From Candidatus Melainabacteria bacterium (GTDB lineage Bacteria > Cyanobacteriota > Vampirovibrionia > Obscuribacterales > Obscuribacteraceae): a stretch of 37,772 bases of DNA. The notes under the pieces were generated by a model. It was not told where the DNA came from. It did no database searches and saw only the letters and a program-made list of their open reading frames with translations. The stretch's first letter is position 1; every line of letters starts with the position of its first letter. The position numbers and the translations under genes were made by a program. The stretch is taken from the NCBI GenBank assembly GCA_020854255.1, contig JADZFV010000478.1, positions 1-37,772 of the forward strand. Direction: 5' to 3'. Shown here piece by piece: positions 3,944 to 16,595 of this stretch.

Positions 3944-4221
3944 CTGTCAATTGTATTGGCAAATACCTCATAAATTCGCCGCCGGTTTCCTCAAGGGCAA
4001 TTGGTTTAGATGCCAAGGAACCCCGAATCGCATAAGAAATTACATTAAGTGTTTAATACAACATCTGAAAGGCATAATGAGTTTGTCGGCCCTATACGGA
4101 TTGACCCCTCGCCCGGAGAAACAACCGGCGAGATTACTACGGGTCCTGAGGGTCCGGTAGCTTTCCGGTCAAGGTCGACAGACAACAGAGGAAAACAAGT
4201 GAGGGCGCGGAACTAAAGCGA

Positions 4222-7200
4222 ATGACAGGCAAAGAGTCGCCTCTTTCTGACATTTACACTCTCCTGGGCGTCTCCCAGATGTCCCCTATGGAGGGCGTCC
4301 GCACGCAATTTTACAAGTTGACAAGGCGGATTCACCGAGAGCTGGCAACTGCTGTCGATCTCGATCAGCGCAAGAAGCTGCTCTACGATTTAAAGTTCAT
4401 CTGTATTGCCTACGACATTCTTTCCGACCCAGTTACAAGGACCGACTACGACTTAAGAACAATGGGCTTAAGAGGCGTGGCCATGCCGCAGACGCCTGAA
4501 GAGAAGAAGCCCGGAGAGCTCGGTCAGAGGCTGCACCTCAAGATTGGCGAGCTTTTGAATGTAGCCGGGCTTTTGGAAACATCCGAACTGGAAATAGCTT
4601 GCGACATGCACAAAGCCATGCCGGAAATGCAATTTGGAAGTTTTCTGGTCAAGCAGGGATTTATTGAAGAATATCAACTGGAAGCTGTTCTGTTTGCGCA
4701 AAAACTCTTGCGCAAAGGGCTTATCACCATTGTTCAATATCAGGCAGCGATGGAAGAACTCGAATCAAGTGGTGTCAGTGTATCGGAAACAGTCGTTGAG
4801 CGTGGCTATGTAACGCAATCCGATCTGGATCACCTGGAAGAAGTGGAAGCAGAAGCGGAAGCGGAATTGAATCGTCCGGCGACTGCGCCTGTTTACACGC
4901 AGCCGCCCCTGCAGGAAAAACCTGTCGATCAAGTTACAAGCCATTCCAATTTGCTCGCTCAGATGTTGCCTCCCGGTGCATCGGATGCGGTATCAGCGCG
5001 CACCGGCGGCAACGGCGAAAAATCGGCTGGAATGCTGCACAAACTTCTTTCCGGAGCGCAGGATGGAGACATAACAGCACCGCCCTCAACCATGGGCGGA
5101 TTGCTCAAAGGCAAGGGAACAATCTCTTCCGGAGCCGCTGCCGCTGCTGAAGCTGTTTCAGCCGCCGATGCTTATGCTGCGGTTGAAACATCTTCCCCCC
5201 CTGGCAATCCGCCGCCCGAAGCAAAAGATCATAAAGAGCCCAGAGAGCACAAAGAACACAAAGAACAAAAAGAGCAGAAAGAAAGCGGCCGAAAGAAAAA
5301 GAATATTGAATTGCACGAAGTGCCGGCAGCTTTTGATCCTAACCTCAGTCGCGGTGTCAATGACATCGCTTCGGATACTTACGAAGGGGCGGCATACAAG
5401 GACGAACTGCTCAAGCCGGAAGATATAAAGGACACCGATGAGCTCAGCCAACCTGCAGAATCCCATCTTGCAGCGGATCAGGACAATTTTATCAGCAGGC
5501 AAGACGGATTGCTTACCGCTGATGAAAGCGAAAGCAATGAGCCGTACAGCGAAATAATGTCAGCGGCCCAAAGTGATAGCGCCTCCGGCGATGAGTTCGG
5601 ACTGATTGATGCAGGGACAAGCGGCGTTGAATTTCAAGGCTTCGTCGACAGCGACGAACGAGCCGCAGGTACAGATGAAGATGAAAACGAGGAAGACGAA
5701 GATGAAGACGAGGAAGACGAAGGCAATATCACTCTCATAGATGCCGACGGCACGCAACTTGTGGAGGCGAGTCTGCCGCCATCGGAAGTTGAGCGCGAAG
5801 CACAAGTAAGGGTGGGAAGCAAAAACAAAACTTCCGATGCCACACACGAGCGTATTCCTGCATACACATGGCCAGATAGTCCTCTAATGACAGGGGATGC
5901 TGCCGGCGCGACGACATCGCCGAGGGCTGAGATTGGCCAGGACAGTGCAGACAACGAAAGTAAAATTCCCAATTCCTCCAAAGTTGATCCTTCCCTGGTT
6001 ACTACCCGCGACAGGATACCGGCGTTCAGACCGCCATTGCACAACACTTTCCAACTCGATGAAGAGGCTACTCAGCAAGGTGGAGAGCCAAAACCTGAAG
6101 GCGAAGGCGATTCAGGCGAACGCCAACTGGTGATATCGAATGCAGTACCAAGCTGGAAGGATCAACTCGATTGGACTGCGCCGGAAGAGGAAGAAGAAGC
6201 CAGAAAACAGCAACAACCGCCAACCGCAAGCCAGGAAAGCGAACCCATCGTCGACATCAGCCGACACCTTGATCTCGAAGCAATAGAACCTCAAAACAAA
6301 GATGACGGCGACGACGAGCTGAAGTCGTTCCTTGGCAAAGAGTACAAAGAAGATTTAACCGAACTCAACGAAAGCGGGCGGCCGCTATGGGATGTTGAGG
6401 ATGATGAATTCATTGTGCCTTCTTCGCAAAAGAAAAACGCACAGCACGCTAAAGAAGAGGAAGAACGTCAGCAAAAAGAAAAGAAAACCTCGGGCGGCTG
6501 GCAGCGGCTGAAAAATCCATTTGAGTTACAGATAGGCACAGGCGGCAGCTCCGGCCAAATCACCGGAGAAGAAGCTGTTGTTGAAGTGCCTGAGCAAGAA
6601 GCGCTCGACATATCGAGAAGCATAACAGCAGAATTTCTTCGACCCGATTTTCTTCGAGAAGATCAATCGGCTGAAGCGGCAGGCGCAGCAGCGAGCTCTA
6701 CCGATTCATTCATTGAACCAAATGATTCACTCGCGGCGGGTGAAGATTCTTTCCAGGCATCATTGCAAGCAAGCAGCAATCCGCAAATTGTCATCGGCTT
6801 GGAAGATGCCGATCATTGCGGTGAAGTGGAGGCGGAAGAAAAATTTGTTGCTTTTGGCGAATCGGCGAAAACTGGATCATCCACGGCGGAAGAACTGATA
6901 ATTGAGGAGCCGCTTTCGAAAAAAACCTCTCCAAAGGATTCTTCCATGGAACATCAATCTATCCATGAACCGCCTGCCCTTGAAAAGAACATAGAAGTCG
7001 AAGAAGCAATCGTGGATAAGAAGACTATTGAAGAGTCGGTTATTGAAGAGTCGACTATTGAGCCCGCGGTTGCAGAGGGAGCGATTGTAGAAGAGTCGGT
7101 TATTGAAGAAGCAGCGCTCGACGACGCAGCAGCCGCTGAGCCAGTATTGCAAGAGTCGGTTGAAGTTGAAACCGTGGTAGTAGAACCGTTTGCGGAAACC

Positions 7201-7587
7201 CTTTCTGAAGAAGCGATATTGGAAGAAGAATCTGCCGTAGATACAGTCGACGAAGCAGTAGTCGCTGCAGAAGCGACAGGCGATGAGGAATCCGCCGCAG
7301 AAGAAGCTACCGAAGACAGATCAAAAGCTGAAGACGTCTCTACACCGGCAAGAAATGATGAAGTCGCGCAGCCTGCACTAGCAGACGATAAAGAGCAACC
7401 TGCCGACACCGCAGAGCAAGAAGTAACTTTGACATCAGGCGATAACGGAGCCGTTGCTCAAGATGCTGATGACGACACTACAGGCGATGACAAAGCTGCA
7501 GCTTCGGCAGCCGGCGCGGCAGAAGAAACACCTCTGGAAAGAAGACGAAGAATGTTGGGCAGACGCCACCACAAAGGCAAGCCGTAA
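4222..7587 (+). CDS. J-like domain protein with MshEN-like units and a long acidic tail, 1121 aa
   Basis: Residues about 10-82 have the J-domain plan (YTLLGV at 12-17, then AYDILSDPVTRTDYD at 63-77), but the HPD motif that stimulates DnaK is replaced by HRE at 38-40. Residues about 107-207 contain helical units like the MshEN (GspE/PilB N-terminal) module; the best is residues 137-160, with FG, LV, G, I, L and a final Gln at motif positions. The rest, about 210-1121, is disordered and strongly acidic: a KEHKEQ run, a Glu/Asp run near 490, three decaying 20-residue repeats at 938-997, and a basic end (ERRRRMLGRRHHKGKP). No membrane segment or signal peptide is visible. The ATG at 4222 is chosen because the upstream GTG at 4200 hits a stop. 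CATAAT at 4073-4078 could be a -10 box. Function unknown; a cytosolic scaffold or adaptor is my inference. Confidence 0.85.
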   Translation: MTGKESPLSDIYTLLGVSQMSPMEGVRTQFYKLTRRIHRELATAVDLDQRKKLLYDLKFICIAYDILSDPVTRTDYDLRTMGLRGVAMPQTPEEKKPGELGQRLHLKIGELLNVAGLLETSELEIACDMHKAMPEMQFGSFLVKQGFIEEYQLEAVLFAQKLLRKGLITIVQYQAAMEELESSGVSVSETVVERGYVTQSDLDHLEEVEAEAEAELNRPATAPVYTQPPLQEKPVDQVTSHSNLLAQMLPPGASDAVSARTGGNGEKSAGMLHKLLSGAQDGDITAPPSTMGGLLKGKGTISSGAAAAAEAVSAADAYAAVETSSPPGNPPPEAKDHKEPREHKEHKEQKEQKESGRKKKNIELHEVPAAFDPNLSRGVNDIASDTYEGAAYKDELLKPEDIKDTDELSQPAESHLAADQDNFISRQDGLLTADESESNEPYSEIMSAAQSDSASGDEFGLIDAGTSGVEFQGFVDSDERAAGTDEDENEEDEDEDEEDEGNITLIDADGTQLVEASLPPSEVEREAQVRVGSKNKTSDATHERIPAYTWPDSPLMTGDAAGATTSPRAEIGQDSADNESKIPNSSKVDPSLVTTRDRIPAFRPPLHNTFQLDEEATQQGGEPKPEGEGDSGERQLVISNAVPSWKDQLDWTAPEEEEEARKQQQPPTASQESEPIVDISRHLDLEAIEPQNKDDGDDELKSFLGKEYKEDLTELNESGRPLWDVEDDEFIVPSSQKKNAQHAKEEEERQQKEKKTSGGWQRLKNPFELQIGTGGSSGQITGEEAVVEVPEQEALDISRSITAEFLRPDFLREDQSAEAAGAAASSTDSFIEPNDSLAAGEDSFQASLQASSNPQIVIGLEDADHCGEVEAEEKFVAFGESAKTGSSTAEELIIEEPLSKKTSPKDSSMEHQSIHEPPALEKNIEVEEAIVDKKTIEESVIEESTIEPAVAEGAIVEESVIEEAALDDAAAAEPVLQESVEVETVVVEPFAETLSEEAILEEESAVDTVDEAVVAAEATGDEESAAEEATEDRSKAEDVSTPARNDEVAQPALADDKEQPADTAEQEVTLTSGDNGAVAQDADDDTTGDDKAAASAAGAAEETPLERRRRMLGRRHHKGKP
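7033..7212 (+). repeat. three decaying 60-bp tandem repeats inside the acidic-tail gene
   Basis: The string AAGAGTCGGTT recurs exactly every 60 bp (7031, 7091, 7151), and a 20-bp exact repeat links the first two copies (7030-7049 and 7090-7109). In the protein this gives three 20-residue units that each start Glu-Ser-Val (residues 938-957, 958-977, 978-997) and then diverge. This looks like a tandem duplication that has since drifted. Confidence 0.7.
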
Positions 7588-8607: not shown

Positions 8608-11607
8608 CTAGTGTCTCGTTACTTCCACGCTAGTTTTGCAATCTTCAGCGGTTTTCGGCAAACCCTCAGATGCAGTCGACGGTTTCAAACCATTCAGCAA
8701 CTTGGTCAATTCCTGGGTCTGGGGGCCACCTTTCCTGACACCCTGGCTAAACACCTCAATCGCCCGATCTTTGTTTCCTTTTAAAGCCTCAGCTTGACCT
8801 ACCCAAAAACATTGTCCCTGGGTCATTGCTTCCAGTTTGAGAGGTGGCTGCACCACCTGCCTGGCTGTATTGAAGCGACCGGTCATGTAGGCAATTACAT
8901 CACACGCTGCAGCGGTCGCTTGCGACTCGGACAATGTCCAGGCCTCGTAGGCCGCGGCAAGCGCCGCATCGTCGAGGCTCTCTGCCGGGTGTTTCTGAGA
9001 AAAAGCCGCCATGGACAGCGCCACTCGATCAAGAAATTCTGCCCTTTCCCCAACGCTGTTTGGAATGTTCTTAAAACAAGGCAGGAGGTTGGCCCGGCTC
9101 GAATACAGCACGGCAAGATTTTTCTCGATGCCGTCATCCTTATCCAGAAGTTGATAGGGCAAAGCGTATTCACTTCTCAGATTGTCATCCGTATTGAATA
9201 AGACTCGCTGCGAACCTAATTTTTTCCACAGCAATTCGTCCAGTGACTGAGGTGTCAAAACAAGCATGGAGAGAAGATCTGGCACAGATATAATTCGGCA
9301 GTATTGAAGTTTTGCCGAGAGGGCTGCTTCGCCCATTGCAGCCTTGATACCTCTCATATCAAGTTTGGCCTCCTCAGCTATTTCCTCTATCGGCTGGTCT
9401 TGATGCTTCCTGTCACTTGTTTCAGATTTAACTGCAACAATCAAAATCTCGCCTGAGCCGTGCGGATGAAAAACATAGGTTGAAGGAAAGGCGCTTTGAA
9501 TGGTGTTCAGCAAAACAAGCAGCATCTTTTCGTCGATTGCATAAAGCTGCAACCACTGACAGAAAACACCACCTTTGTTAAGGCGCGAAAAAGCAAGCTG
9601 AAAGAACTCTTTCGTGTAAAGATCCGCAGCTCCATTCACCCAGGGCTCAGCAGGCTGAGAGACGATTAAGTCATATGTTTCGGGTCCAAACGCAAGTTGG
9701 CTGCGCGCATCGCAAATGAGTTTGCGAATATCGGCTCGCTCCTTATTTTTCTGCTGAGGAAGAAAGAATCGACTGGCTTCGAAGACTGCCTTTTCGATCT
9801 CGGCCACCGTCAAGCTCGCAATATTTTTCTGTTCGGCAATAGCACCATATGTGATACCACTACCGCATCCGATCACCAGACAATTTTTTTTCTCTTTTGA
9901 CGACAAAACGTAAGGAAGGCAAGCAAGCAAGATCTGAGTTGTGTAATCGCTGGTCGGCGCCGGACGAGCGAGATTGAGGGGTATGGCAGCTTCCGCCTTT
10001 CCATCGTTCTTCAAAACTCTAACATTGTGCTTTGGAAAGTCCTGTACGGTCACCGTGGTGTTTAATCCTTCTCGGTAGAAAACGATCGGGGAATTTTTTC
10101 TCGCTTCAGCCAATGATGCAAGCTCACTTTTTTCACCCCCGCTGACCGGGGTTAAGCCCAACCCTTGCGAAAGCATGAACTTATCTGCATGCGGCGAATA
10201 GACTACTGCAAGTAATCCTATGATGGCAGAGCAGCTCAAAAAAGCAACGCCGCTAATTTTTGCTTTCTTTGGTTCCACCATAATTTGAAATGCCGCTGCC
10301 AATGCTGCGATGAACAAACACACCGCAGCAACAACGATCAAACTTGTAAGCAATCCGCTTTCGAATTTCTCGCTCAAACCGGGAATCAAGAACAAACCCG
10401 CACCAAGAGATCCAACCACGCATCCCAGAGTACTGGCGACATACAGCCATCCAGCTCTGGTTGTTTTCGAGTAAACTTCTTTCAGACTGCCTGCCAAAAT
10501 CATGGGAAAAACAGCGCTGACAAAAAAGACTGGGATAACCACAAAAAGCATGCACACCATCGCCCGCGCAATGACAAAACTGTTCAGCGTCGAAACGTTT
10601 TGCAGACCCGCAGCGTTCTGGGAAAAATGATAAACCATCTCCGGCATGTAATTCAACAAACAGGCTTCGGTAAAAATCACAACTGCCGCACCGGAGGCAA
10701 AAAGCGCGACGCCGGTTTTGGCGTCGGCAATGTTTTTGGCCGATAGGCCGACCATCTGTGCCGACCAGTAGATGCCCAGCAGTGCTCCCACAAGCACTGT
10801 TGCGACGCTGTAAGTAGACGAACCGACAACCAGAGTAAAGAGTCTGGTCAGAGTCACTTCCAGGGCAAGCGTAGCTGCCGCGGAAAGAAAAACGAGAGCA
10901 CAGTCAATTTGCGGCACCACCGTATCCGGTGCTTTAGACGCGGCAATTTCGATCGAATTGCGAGGGCAGATCAGTTTGACGGCCGCAAAGGACAGTACTA
11001 ATGCCGTCACTCCACTGACAATGTTCACCCCTCCGGAAACTCCCAGAGACAGAGACAGTCCACCTGTCGGAATCAAAAGGAAGGCACCGCCGGCGGCGCC
11101 GACTACAGCACCTAGCAAATTTGCAGTATAAAGCGACACAATCGCCGAATCGAGATCGAGAGCAATTCTTTCTGCGGCGGCAACAGCAGCAGGCCAGGTC
11201 GCGCCCATGAATAATGACGGCAGAAGAGCAATTAAAAATGCCAGTGCCAGACGGGTCGATTCGTCGCCCAGACAGGACATCTGGAAAAGCACGCCGCCTG
11301 AGAACACAAAAGCATAAGCAAAAGCGCAGGCACAAGTAAGGACTTCCAGCATGGCAAAGAAACGCAGCGGATTGAGGGCGCCAAGCGGCCCGCCTCCTCT
11401 GGTCAAGAGTGCATTACCAAGCAGTGCTCCGGCACCCAATCCGGCCATCACGCCGGCATAGACAACGGCGCTGGCCGGCGTCGTCGCCCCGACCAGCCGC
11501 AAAAGTTCGCGCTGCCAGACGCTTTGAGCAATAAGAGCGGCGCCGCCGGAAAGCGCAACACTCAAAAGCAGCGCGACCTCAATTGTTTTTCGCCCCGAAC
11601 CCGGCAT
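8608..11607 (-). CDS. membrane protein fused to a spermidine synthase-like domain, 999 aa
   Basis: The first about 480 residues are hydrophobic, with roughly a dozen predicted membrane segments (for example LLLSVALSGGAALIA near the start, then VVYAGVMAGLGAGALLG). Residues about 560-800 form a Rossmann/spermidine-synthase-like domain with LVIGCGSG near 577-584 and YDLIVSQPAEPW near 645-656. The C-terminal 150 residues are helical and contain one TPR-like unit (GQAEALKGNKDRAIEVFSQGV). This layout matches the 'fused MFS/spermidine synthase' family. In true SpeE enzymes the second motif carries a catalytic Asp (as in VDSSDP); here it is SQPAEP, so polyamine synthesis is doubtful and the substrate is unknown. 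ATG at 11607 is preceded by AGAAGAG. It is the first gene of a minus-strand pair with the response regulator and is divergent from sbcC. Confidence 0.85.
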   Translation of the reverse strand: MPGSGRKTIEVALLLSVALSGGAALIAQSVWQRELLRLVGATTPASAVVYAGVMAGLGAGALLGNALLTRGGGPLGALNPLRFFAMLEVLTCACAFAYAFVFSGGVLFQMSCLGDESTRLALAFLIALLPSLFMGATWPAAVAAAERIALDLDSAIVSLYTANLLGAVVGAAGGAFLLIPTGGLSLSLGVSGGVNIVSGVTALVLSFAAVKLICPRNSIEIAASKAPDTVVPQIDCALVFLSAAATLALEVTLTRLFTLVVGSSTYSVATVLVGALLGIYWSAQMVGLSAKNIADAKTGVALFASGAAVVIFTEACLLNYMPEMVYHFSQNAAGLQNVSTLNSFVIARAMVCMLFVVIPVFFVSAVFPMILAGSLKEVYSKTTRAGWLYVASTLGCVVGSLGAGLFLIPGLSEKFESGLLTSLIVVAAVCLFIAALAAAFQIMVEPKKAKISGVAFLSCSAIIGLLAVVYSPHADKFMLSQGLGLTPVSGGEKSELASLAEARKNSPIVFYREGLNTTVTVQDFPKHNVRVLKNDGKAEAAIPLNLARPAPTSDYTTQILLACLPYVLSSKEKKNCLVIGCGSGITYGAIAEQKNIASLTVAEIEKAVFEASRFFLPQQKNKERADIRKLICDARSQLAFGPETYDLIVSQPAEPWVNGAADLYTKEFFQLAFSRLNKGGVFCQWLQLYAIDEKMLLVLLNTIQSAFPSTYVFHPHGSGEILIVAVKSETSDRKHQDQPIEEIAEEAKLDMRGIKAAMGEAALSAKLQYCRIISVPDLLSMLVLTPQSLDELLWKKLGSQRVLFNTDDNLRSEYALPYQLLDKDDGIEKNLAVLYSSRANLLPCFKNIPNSVGERAEFLDRVALSMAAFSQKHPAESLDDAALAAAYEAWTLSESQATAAACDVIAYMTGRFNTARQVVQPPLKLEAMTQGQCFWVGQAEALKGNKDRAIEVFSQGVRKGGPQTQELTKLLNGLKPSTASEGLPKTAEDCKTSVEVTRH

Positions 11608-15065: not shown

Positions 15066-16595
15066 ATGCAGCAATCCCAACCACCTAGCAAGACCGGCAA
15101 CCGTCTCAGACTGGATATCCAAAGCCAGTTGCCGCCTTATCACATGATCGATCTTGCCTATACCGAGTCGAAAACGCGGCGCGGCTGCCTGGTCGAGATC
15201 CCGTGGAGAACCAAGAAGCCAGGTCAGATGTTCACCCTCACTTGCCAATGGGAAGATGGCGCGGAGTTGCCGGTCTGGTCACTGTATGAACAGTCAGGCG
15301 AAGACTCCAAATTACACTGGAGCAAGCCTTTTGGGTCAGCCGACCTGCAACTTTTGTATGACATGGCAGCAATGTCTGCGGTCGATACCGACGGTGCCAA
15401 AATTCCTGACACTTTGAAAGCAAAAGATAGCCAAAAGATTGAAGTGACGCCGCCGTCGCAACCAGGCTATGCGGCGCCTCCAGCTGGTTATGCCCCGCAA
15501 GGGCCCGCGCCTGGCGGAACAGATTTTACTCAGGGCGCGATACCTGCGTATCAGAACCCGTACGGTGGATATCCTCCGCCCGGTTATGCGATGCCGCAAC
15601 AAATGTATCCGCCGCCGATGCCGGGTTATCCGCCCATGCCCGGCTATCCGCAGATGCCGCAACAGATGTATCCCGGAATGCCCGGCATGATGCCGGGTAT
15701 GCCCGGAATGCCAGGCGATCCGAATGCCTGGATGCAGCAAGGAATGGCACAGGGAATGGCTCCCGGTATGATGCCTGCAATGGCAGCCGGTGTGGCTCCC
15801 GGCACGGCTCCACCTCAGCCAGCGCCTCCGCCCCAACAACCTCAGGCACAGACAGCGATCACACCTCTGGTGGGCGGAAGCGGGTCCTTCAAGCGCATCG
15901 ACATGAGCCTTATCTCCAAGACCCAGACGCTTGACATAGGAACGTTGCTCCTCAACGCTCACTTGATCAAACAAAACACTCTGGAAGCAGCGCTGAAAAT
16001 TCAGGGCATGGTGGATGACGGTAAATTAGATCCAGAAATCGCTCCGGCGGCTCTCGAGCGATTCCATGGCGAAGGCTCGAAAATCGATAATTATTTGACA
16101 GGTGATGTGCTCGAGAAAATGCGCGACAAGGCAAAACAGGCACCGGCAGCGCCACCATCAAGACCGGCAGAGCCTACTGCCAGCGCGCCTCAATCTGGAG
16201 CTGTCGCAGCTGCCGAAGGCGACAAACAGGCAGCTCCTGTCAAGAAAGGTCAGAAGTCTCCGGAGGAAATCCAAAAGATCCGCAACGCTTTCGATTTGCT
16301 CAAACAAGCTGGAATTATCTCGGACACCGATATCCAAACAGCGCAAACAGTACTGAGAAAACACGGCGGAGATATTGTTGAAATTCTCGTTTCGGCAGGC
16401 AAATTCGACAGGAATACATTTGAGGCAGCCCATATCGTAAGACCGCTTATTGACGCCACTTTGATGAAGCTGGAACAAGCAATCATCGTGCTCAATTATT
16501 GCTGCCGCAGCCGCGTTGACTTCGATACGGCAATCGATGAAATGGGTTGGCAAAACCCGCGCAAGCTCCGAACCGATTTGAATTTGGAAAAATAG
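15066..16595 (+). CDS. hypothetical protein with Met/Pro/Gly-rich linker and MshEN-like helical units, 509 aa
   Basis: Residues about 10-120 form an unrecognised beta-rich domain (RRGCLVEIPW, MFTLTCQWEDGAELPVWSLYEQ). Residues about 135-262 are a disordered Pro/Gly/Met/Gln linker of short PGY, PGM and QQMYP-type units. Residues about 285-345 and 395-500 are helical and contain units of the type IGTLLLNAHLIKQNTLEAALKIQ and LLKQAGIISDTDIQTAQTVL, close to the N-terminal module of GspE/PilB/MshE ATPases. No Walker motif follows, so it is not a pilus ATPase. The same type of unit occurs in the 1121-aa protein at 4.2 kb. The ATG at 15066 lies 48 bp after sbcC and is preceded only by a weak AGAAGAG. 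No signal peptide, so cytosolic. Function unknown. Confidence 0.82.
   Translation: MQQSQPPSKTGNRLRLDIQSQLPPYHMIDLAYTESKTRRGCLVEIPWRTKKPGQMFTLTCQWEDGAELPVWSLYEQSGEDSKLHWSKPFGSADLQLLYDMAAMSAVDTDGAKIPDTLKAKDSQKIEVTPPSQPGYAAPPAGYAPQGPAPGGTDFTQGAIPAYQNPYGGYPPPGYAMPQQMYPPPMPGYPPMPGYPQMPQQMYPGMPGMMPGMPGMPGDPNAWMQQGMAQGMAPGMMPAMAAGVAPGTAPPQPAPPPQQPQAQTAITPLVGGSGSFKRIDMSLISKTQTLDIGTLLLNAHLIKQNTLEAALKIQGMVDDGKLDPEIAPAALERFHGEGSKIDNYLTGDVLEKMRDKAKQAPAAPPSRPAEPTASAPQSGAVAAAEGDKQAAPVKKGQKSPEEIQKIRNAFDLLKQAGIISDTDIQTAQTVLRKHGGDIVEILVSAGKFDRNTFEAAHIVRPLIDATLMKLEQAIIVLNYCCRSRVDFDTAIDEMGWQNPRKLRTDLNLEK
15580..15800 (+). repeat. Met-Pro-Gly low-complexity repeat tract in coding sequence
   Basis: Irregular repeats of ATGCCGGGN- and CCGCAACA-type units encode a run of PGY, PGM and MPQQMYP motifs. 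Strong inverted repeats such as CCCGGCAT-G-ATGCCGGG near 15683 follow directly from the repeated Met-Pro-Gly codons. The tract forms the flexible linker between the N-terminal domain and the helical units. Confidence 0.75.

Follow-up and report, generated by a model that had tools for sequence, protein, structure and literature searches.

The window, by which we mean the whole stretch of 37,772 nucleotides analyzed here, encodes a 1121-residue protein in which a J-like domain devoid of the HPD tripeptide is wired to a c-di-GMP-receptor-type (MshEN) module and followed by a long acidic tail. The protein probably acts as a non-chaperone adaptor, and the fuller reading which we favor, and to which we would give an even chance, is that of a J-like adaptor specific to the Obscuribacterales, possibly gated by a nucleotide, with a tail that docks a partner. 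The host belongs to the Ca. Obscuribacterales, within the non-photosynthetic Cyanobacteriota, a group which is experimentally almost uncharacterized and in which this gene is held at one place throughout an order. The features to which the following account refers are listed below, all on the forward strand of the window.

4222..7587, +, gene for the J-like/MshEN protein, 1121 amino acids (open reading frame, coding evidence and syntenic orthologues in approximately 25 genera)
4249..4461, +, J-like domain, residues 10-80 (Pfam DnaJ; AF2; Foldseek TM on target 0.77-0.87)
4333..4341, +, HRE replacing HPD, residues 38-40, in an extended helix II (alignment)
4540..4701, +, MshEN-type two-motif module, residues 107-160 (NF053729, 5htl_B superposition, pocket table)
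4609..4611, +, His130, invariant (40/40 aligned), at the ligand-binding Gln position of motif I
4702..4830, +, degenerate further half-unit, residues 161-203 (weaker second NF053729 stretch; AF2 helices)
4837..7584, +, acidic tail of disorder type, residues 206-1121, its length differing from orthologue to orthologue (sequence)
6142..6174, +, tail motif AVPSWKDQLDW, residues 641-651, kept in most tailed orthologues
7540..7584, +, basic C-terminus RRRRMLGRRHHKGKP, with the basic end ETPLERRRRMLGRRHHKGKP (sequence)

Comparison with the nearest orthologue (L051) identified 14, 2, and 74 changes at codon positions 1, 2, and 3 of the core and 192, 150, and 450 at those of the tail; as third-position changes dominate in both parts, the open reading frame is coding over its whole length. 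The gene order malQ-F2-rsmG(<)-gene-RR(<)-speE-like(<)-sbcC, where RR is a response regulator gene and < denotes the opposite orientation, is conserved in nearly all family loci that were read, and the gene adjoins rsmG in the sister family f2 as well (L048). The divergent and convergent orientation of the neighboring genes suggests that the gene is monocistronic, and the synteny accordingly carries no functional link. A scan of 84,980 species, based on a few peptide patterns which distant relatives could escape, returned 39 loci that share this core, the majority labelled Obscuribacterales or Melainabacteria and a few belonging to metagenome-assembled genomes labelled otherwise, while the contigs of close orthologues carry the labels Obscuribacterales, Melainabacteria, or Obscuribacter. 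Together with the shared synteny, these loci suggest a single gene passed on by vertical descent. A search of 292 genomes of the phylum yielded no protein combining the two domains outside the order. Two observations on the locus may be added. Within the genus, the only clear insertion at the junction with the response regulator is that of L055 (G006:C1), where three extra open reading frames (229, 87, and 278 amino acids) separate the regulator from the gene described here. In the window, positions 8608 to 11607 of the reverse strand encode a 999-residue protein which is syntenic in nearly all relatives and in which the spermidine-synthase-type domain occupies only residues 554-712, approximately, the remainder being without assignment.

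A preliminary description of this DNA had assigned the J-domain plan to the N-terminal 80 residues, had read HRE in place of HPD, and had considered stimulation of DnaK unlikely, and all three points are supported here. The Pfam DnaJ model matches residues 10-77 with 28.7 bits (cut-off 27.8) and is matched by 25 of 40 aligned sequences at E<=0.001, while a profile built from 40 family sequences reaches J domains among PDB chains at E=8e-7. The AF2 model of residues 1-213 (pLDDT 85.3, pTM 0.79) places J-like helices at residues 7-15, 23-43, 47-68, and 70-80, and Foldseek superposes it on J domains such as 6rzy (rmsd 1.8 A, TM 0.86 on target), with the TM on target reaching 0.87 for small J domains. 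Helix II (23-43) retains basic residues and passes through the HPD position, and none of the 40 aligned sequences possesses HPD between helices II and III. Because a helix occupies the HPD region, stimulation of DnaK is unlikely and, as modelled, the domain is J-like and not a J domain. The J fold without HPD is shared with ARC6/ZipN, CJD1, and Pam16, in which it serves as a protein-docking domain; these proteins differ from the one described here in bearing membrane segments or other partner domains. We know of no HPD-less J-like protein with either an MshEN module or a WKDQLDW-type tail motif. For ARC6/ZipN and CJD1, the function of HPD-less J domains as protein-docking modules has been described previously (PMC6391411, PMC3196505).

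Beyond the J-like domain, the sequence had initially been read as MshEN-like units at approximately residues 107-207 that lack the secretion or pilus ATPase which they normally precede. This reading is substantiated in the form of one full two-motif unit and a degenerate half. NCBIfam model NF053729 (MshE-related c-di-GMP motif) covers residues 107-160 end to end (50.5 bits, E=1.3e-13, cut-off 38) and is matched by 40/40 family sequences at E<=0.001, whereas the Pfam MshEN model PF05157 reported no match in this protein. Foldseek aligns 54 columns of the module with MshE in complex with c-di-GMP (5htl_B) at an rmsd of 1.1 A, 31% identity, and a probability of 0.98. The region of the half-unit is modelled as three helices (170-183, 187-193, and 199-212), and a full-length NCBIfam scan identified no ATPase family, the remainder of the protein being the disorder-type tail.

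The module consists of motif I (107-130), the six-residue spacer KAMPEM, and motif II (137-160), and shares the two 24-residue motifs and four-helix bundle of the MshEN/GSPII domains of Vibrio cholerae MshE, Thermus PilF (GSPII-A, -B, and -C), and NfrB. In contrast to those systems, it is fused to a J-like domain rather than to an ATPase or glycosyltransferase, and its spacer is six residues long and conserved (KAMPE) where theirs has five variable residues. MshEN domains have been described in numerous fusions, with REC, HD-GYP, CheA, and other domains, in a source which makes no mention of a J-domain fusion; a full-text search combining MshEN with DnaJ returned no such fusion, only a paper on PilZ proteins with a single mention of DnaJ, so that the domain order appears to be undescribed, as had been supposed. 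The pocket positions vary less than the remaining module positions (mean entropy 0.49 versus 1.00 bits, one-sided p=0.015), and Gly109, Gly139, Leu123, Leu153, Gln160, His130, and Phe138 are invariant in 40/40 sequences. Both pocket Gly residues and the motif II Gln are therefore kept throughout, and the Arg position of motif I holds Arg or Lys in 37/40 sequences (Lys in the window). The departures from the MshEN/GSPII pattern are the replacement of the motif I Gln by His and of the motif II Leu by Phe (each 40/40), of the last Leu of motif I by Ala, Cys, or Val (37/40), and the loss of the motif II Arg in 39/40 sequences, 38 of which carry Gln, Met, Leu, or Pro at this position. The non-binding GSPII-A domain of Thermus thermophilus PilF likewise ends motif I in His and has a replaced motif II Arg, but its motif II Gln (Arg62) and a Gly (Ala41) are gone as well, both of which this protein keeps.

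Binding of c-di-GMP by the module is plausible, and a low-micromolar or better affinity may be put forward tentatively, at somewhat below even odds. The genome holds 34 GGDEF matches (33 of them above cut-off) and 70 matches to NF053729 in roughly 30 open reading frames, which indicates the probable presence of c-di-GMP and its extensive read-out; its MshEN-type genes exceed 22, the maximum given by Wang et al. 2016. A literature search for Obscuribacter with c-di-GMP returned nothing. The MshEN-type expansion of this genome (e.g., C266, C203, C537, C179, and C425) comprises mostly proteins of approximately 400 amino acids with up to four tandem units and, in some cases, tetratricopeptide repeats. 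These arrays share the helical unit of approximately 95 residues with the protein described here, yet they possess no J-like domain and have other residues at the motif I Gln and motif II Arg positions. Elsewhere in the window (15066 to 16595, forward strand), a 509-residue protein with a middle part rich in Pro, Gly, and Met bears divergent MshEN-type units near its end.

The acidic tail of roughly 900 residues and the basic end on which the preliminary description had remarked are both present in the window protein, the tail comprising 916 residues with a net charge of approximately -137. The tail is, however, no fixed part of the domain order, as its length ranges from 0 to approximately 1000 residues among orthologues, which themselves extend from 211 amino acids without a tail (g3) to 1457 amino acids; it cannot, therefore, represent the core function and is regarded as an elaboration. 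Outside of the WKDQLDW motif and short islands, the tails cannot be aligned among orthologues, while low-complexity tails and similar basic patches at the end of the protein recur in several genera. The motif, with the consensus [NHKS]A[VLAI]PxWKDQLDW and variants thereof, is found in most tailed genera at 25 to approximately 470 residues beyond the core. A motif score of at least 57 is attained in 27/39 genome loci and in the window; for each tail with a strong match, 0/200 shuffled tails reached the score, and 2000 pairs of C-terminal-tail 13-mers exceeded the threshold compared to 24 after shuffling. An exact DNA-pattern search of 38 genomes located WKDQLDW at 13 sites in 11 genomes, exclusively in this gene. 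Codons vary within the motif through third-position changes while the peptide remains constant, which points to selection on the peptide, and it is proposed from these sequence comparisons that the motif is a short docking-type motif under constraint. The preliminary description had noticed neither this motif nor the N-terminal hairpin which most relatives carry. L054/L072 carries a damaged copy, the motif is absent from L065, L067, and L070 and from the tailless forms, and weaker islands close to the C-terminus (e.g., of WQIV type) recur in some genera. Since the motif or the entire tail is missing from some orthologues, docking by the tail cannot be a universal function of the family. In an AF2 model of L084 comprising the N-terminal hairpin, core, and motif, the motif was not placed confidently on the core (pLDDT 55-64), and a partner in trans is consequently no more than inferred. 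The 1457-residue orthologue (L057, G020:C3) has 933 residues ahead of its J-like domain and contains WKDQLDW three times.

In the adaptor reading, the J-like domain would provide a protein-docking surface instead of activating DnaK, and approximately 20 flexible residues, a feature supported by the computation, join it to the one MshEN-type module. The module would function as the sensor, its pocket holding c-di-GMP or a closely related cyclic dinucleotide at a site which His130 and Phe138 may have re-shaped; alternatively, the site of the pocket may have become a surface for binding proteins. The WKDQLDW motif would tether one specific partner with a variable reach, the state of ligand or partner at the core would gate the complex held by the tail, and the basic end may contribute a contact with nucleic acid or membrane. 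A narrower version of this mechanism, in which His130, Phe138, and the spacer have re-tooled the pocket for a cyclic dinucleotide besides or instead of c-di-GMP, which then controls the HPD-less J domain and the recruitment of the AVPSWKDQLDW partner, is in our view rather unlikely. Were the module to bind a cyclic dinucleotide, this would constitute the first link known to us between such signaling and a J-like docking protein; were it not to bind, it would be an example from nature of the conversion of a nucleotide sensor into a protein-interaction surface, directly testable by virtue of the work on PilF. The conserved tail motif, as peptide SNAVPSWKDQLDWSSPEE, offers a ready bait for the partner.

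The main alternative view of the core is that the module binds no nucleotide and that, together with the J-like domain, it is purely structural, the protein being a constitutive scaffold, which we hold to be a serious possibility while short of probable. The universal His in place of the motif I Gln and the near-universal loss of the motif II Arg argue in its favor, as the GSPII-A domain of PilF, with His at this site and without the second Gln, one Gly, and the Arg, does not bind c-di-GMP (PMC12002112). A spacer which is conserved where it normally is not suggests a new surface, and the sister paralogue and f2 orthologues retain the arrangement with still less of a pocket. Against it, the pocket positions, including Gln160 and both Gly residues, surpass the remainder of the module in conservation, and the window protein scores above the NF053729 cut-off. 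The GSPII-B domain of PilF, moreover, binds c-di-GMP although Lys and Leu occupy its two Arg positions (PMC11731258), and loss of Arg alone is thus tolerated there.

The remaining explanations concern the other parts of the protein. That the acidic tail forms a condensate or scaffold, as was originally suggested, would suit its length and charge, its oppositely charged end, and the low-complexity tails and basic ends of several genera, but in the orthologues of 211-315 amino acids, which are essentially tailless, the tail does not exceed 14 residues, and conservation of the tail is limited to short islands; the suggestion has fared poorly and is judged improbable. A cell-division tether of the ARC6/Ftn2/ZipN kind is brought to mind by the J-like domain, given that the protein comes from the cyanobacterial phylum, and by the requirement of the J-like region of ZipN for interaction with FtsZ (PMC6391411), yet an MshEN module is no part of ARC6/ZipN, and neither an ARC6-like IMS domain (PF13355) nor an obvious membrane helix was found in the sequence, rendering this identity very improbable. 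It was rejected, the sole PF13355 match of the genome lying in a separate gene at C653. Least credible of all is a true J-protein co-chaperone without the canonical HPD: the above-threshold Pfam DnaJ match and the basic residues of helix II are what such a protein would present, but the loss of HPD is universal in the alignment, helix II spans its position, and the HPD-less CJD1 domain cannot complement dnaJ/cbpA (PMC3196505).

Ahead of the J-like domain, most genera and f2 possess an N-terminal helical hairpin (RLELExRVLAAALKQSxExGDxxGxxLAHxQL), which is modelled confidently by AF2 at residues 16-69 of L084. The hairpin-bearing form is the probable ancestral architecture; in the genus of the window and in g3, this gene lacks the hairpin. 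A sister paralogue of approximately 270 amino acids, which was read in ten Obscuribacterales genomes, comprises the hairpin, a degenerate J-like region, and an MshEN-type unit in the same order as in this protein; its J region and pocket are more degenerate, and it has neither the long tail nor the WKDQLDW motif. The J-like region of this paralogue (L179-L188; G011, G006, G009, G013, G036, and others) contains LRKPRLRLSHDL, and the paralogue family is kept from f1 to f2.

Immediately upstream of the gene, a 97-nt stretch of the window (4044-4140, forward strand) is 92-98% identical to the corresponding sequence of five genus members and 77% identical to that of L056, compared to approximately 60-81% identity to the same genus members in its flanks and 59% at the third codon positions of the core. 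An Rfam scan of the window and of this stretch yielded nothing useful, the stretch having no match. A 58-residue, in-frame upstream extension, apparent in five members of the genus, was dismissed as a coding sequence: it lies in another frame in the window, indels break it in L056, and its conservation is above that of third codon positions. The 97-nt stretch, which is single-copy and genus-specific and, in the window, does not share the reading frame of the gene, is on these sequence comparisons possibly a regulatory RNA leader, the stem of which reads CTCG/CGAG and is replaced by TTCG/CGAA in L056.
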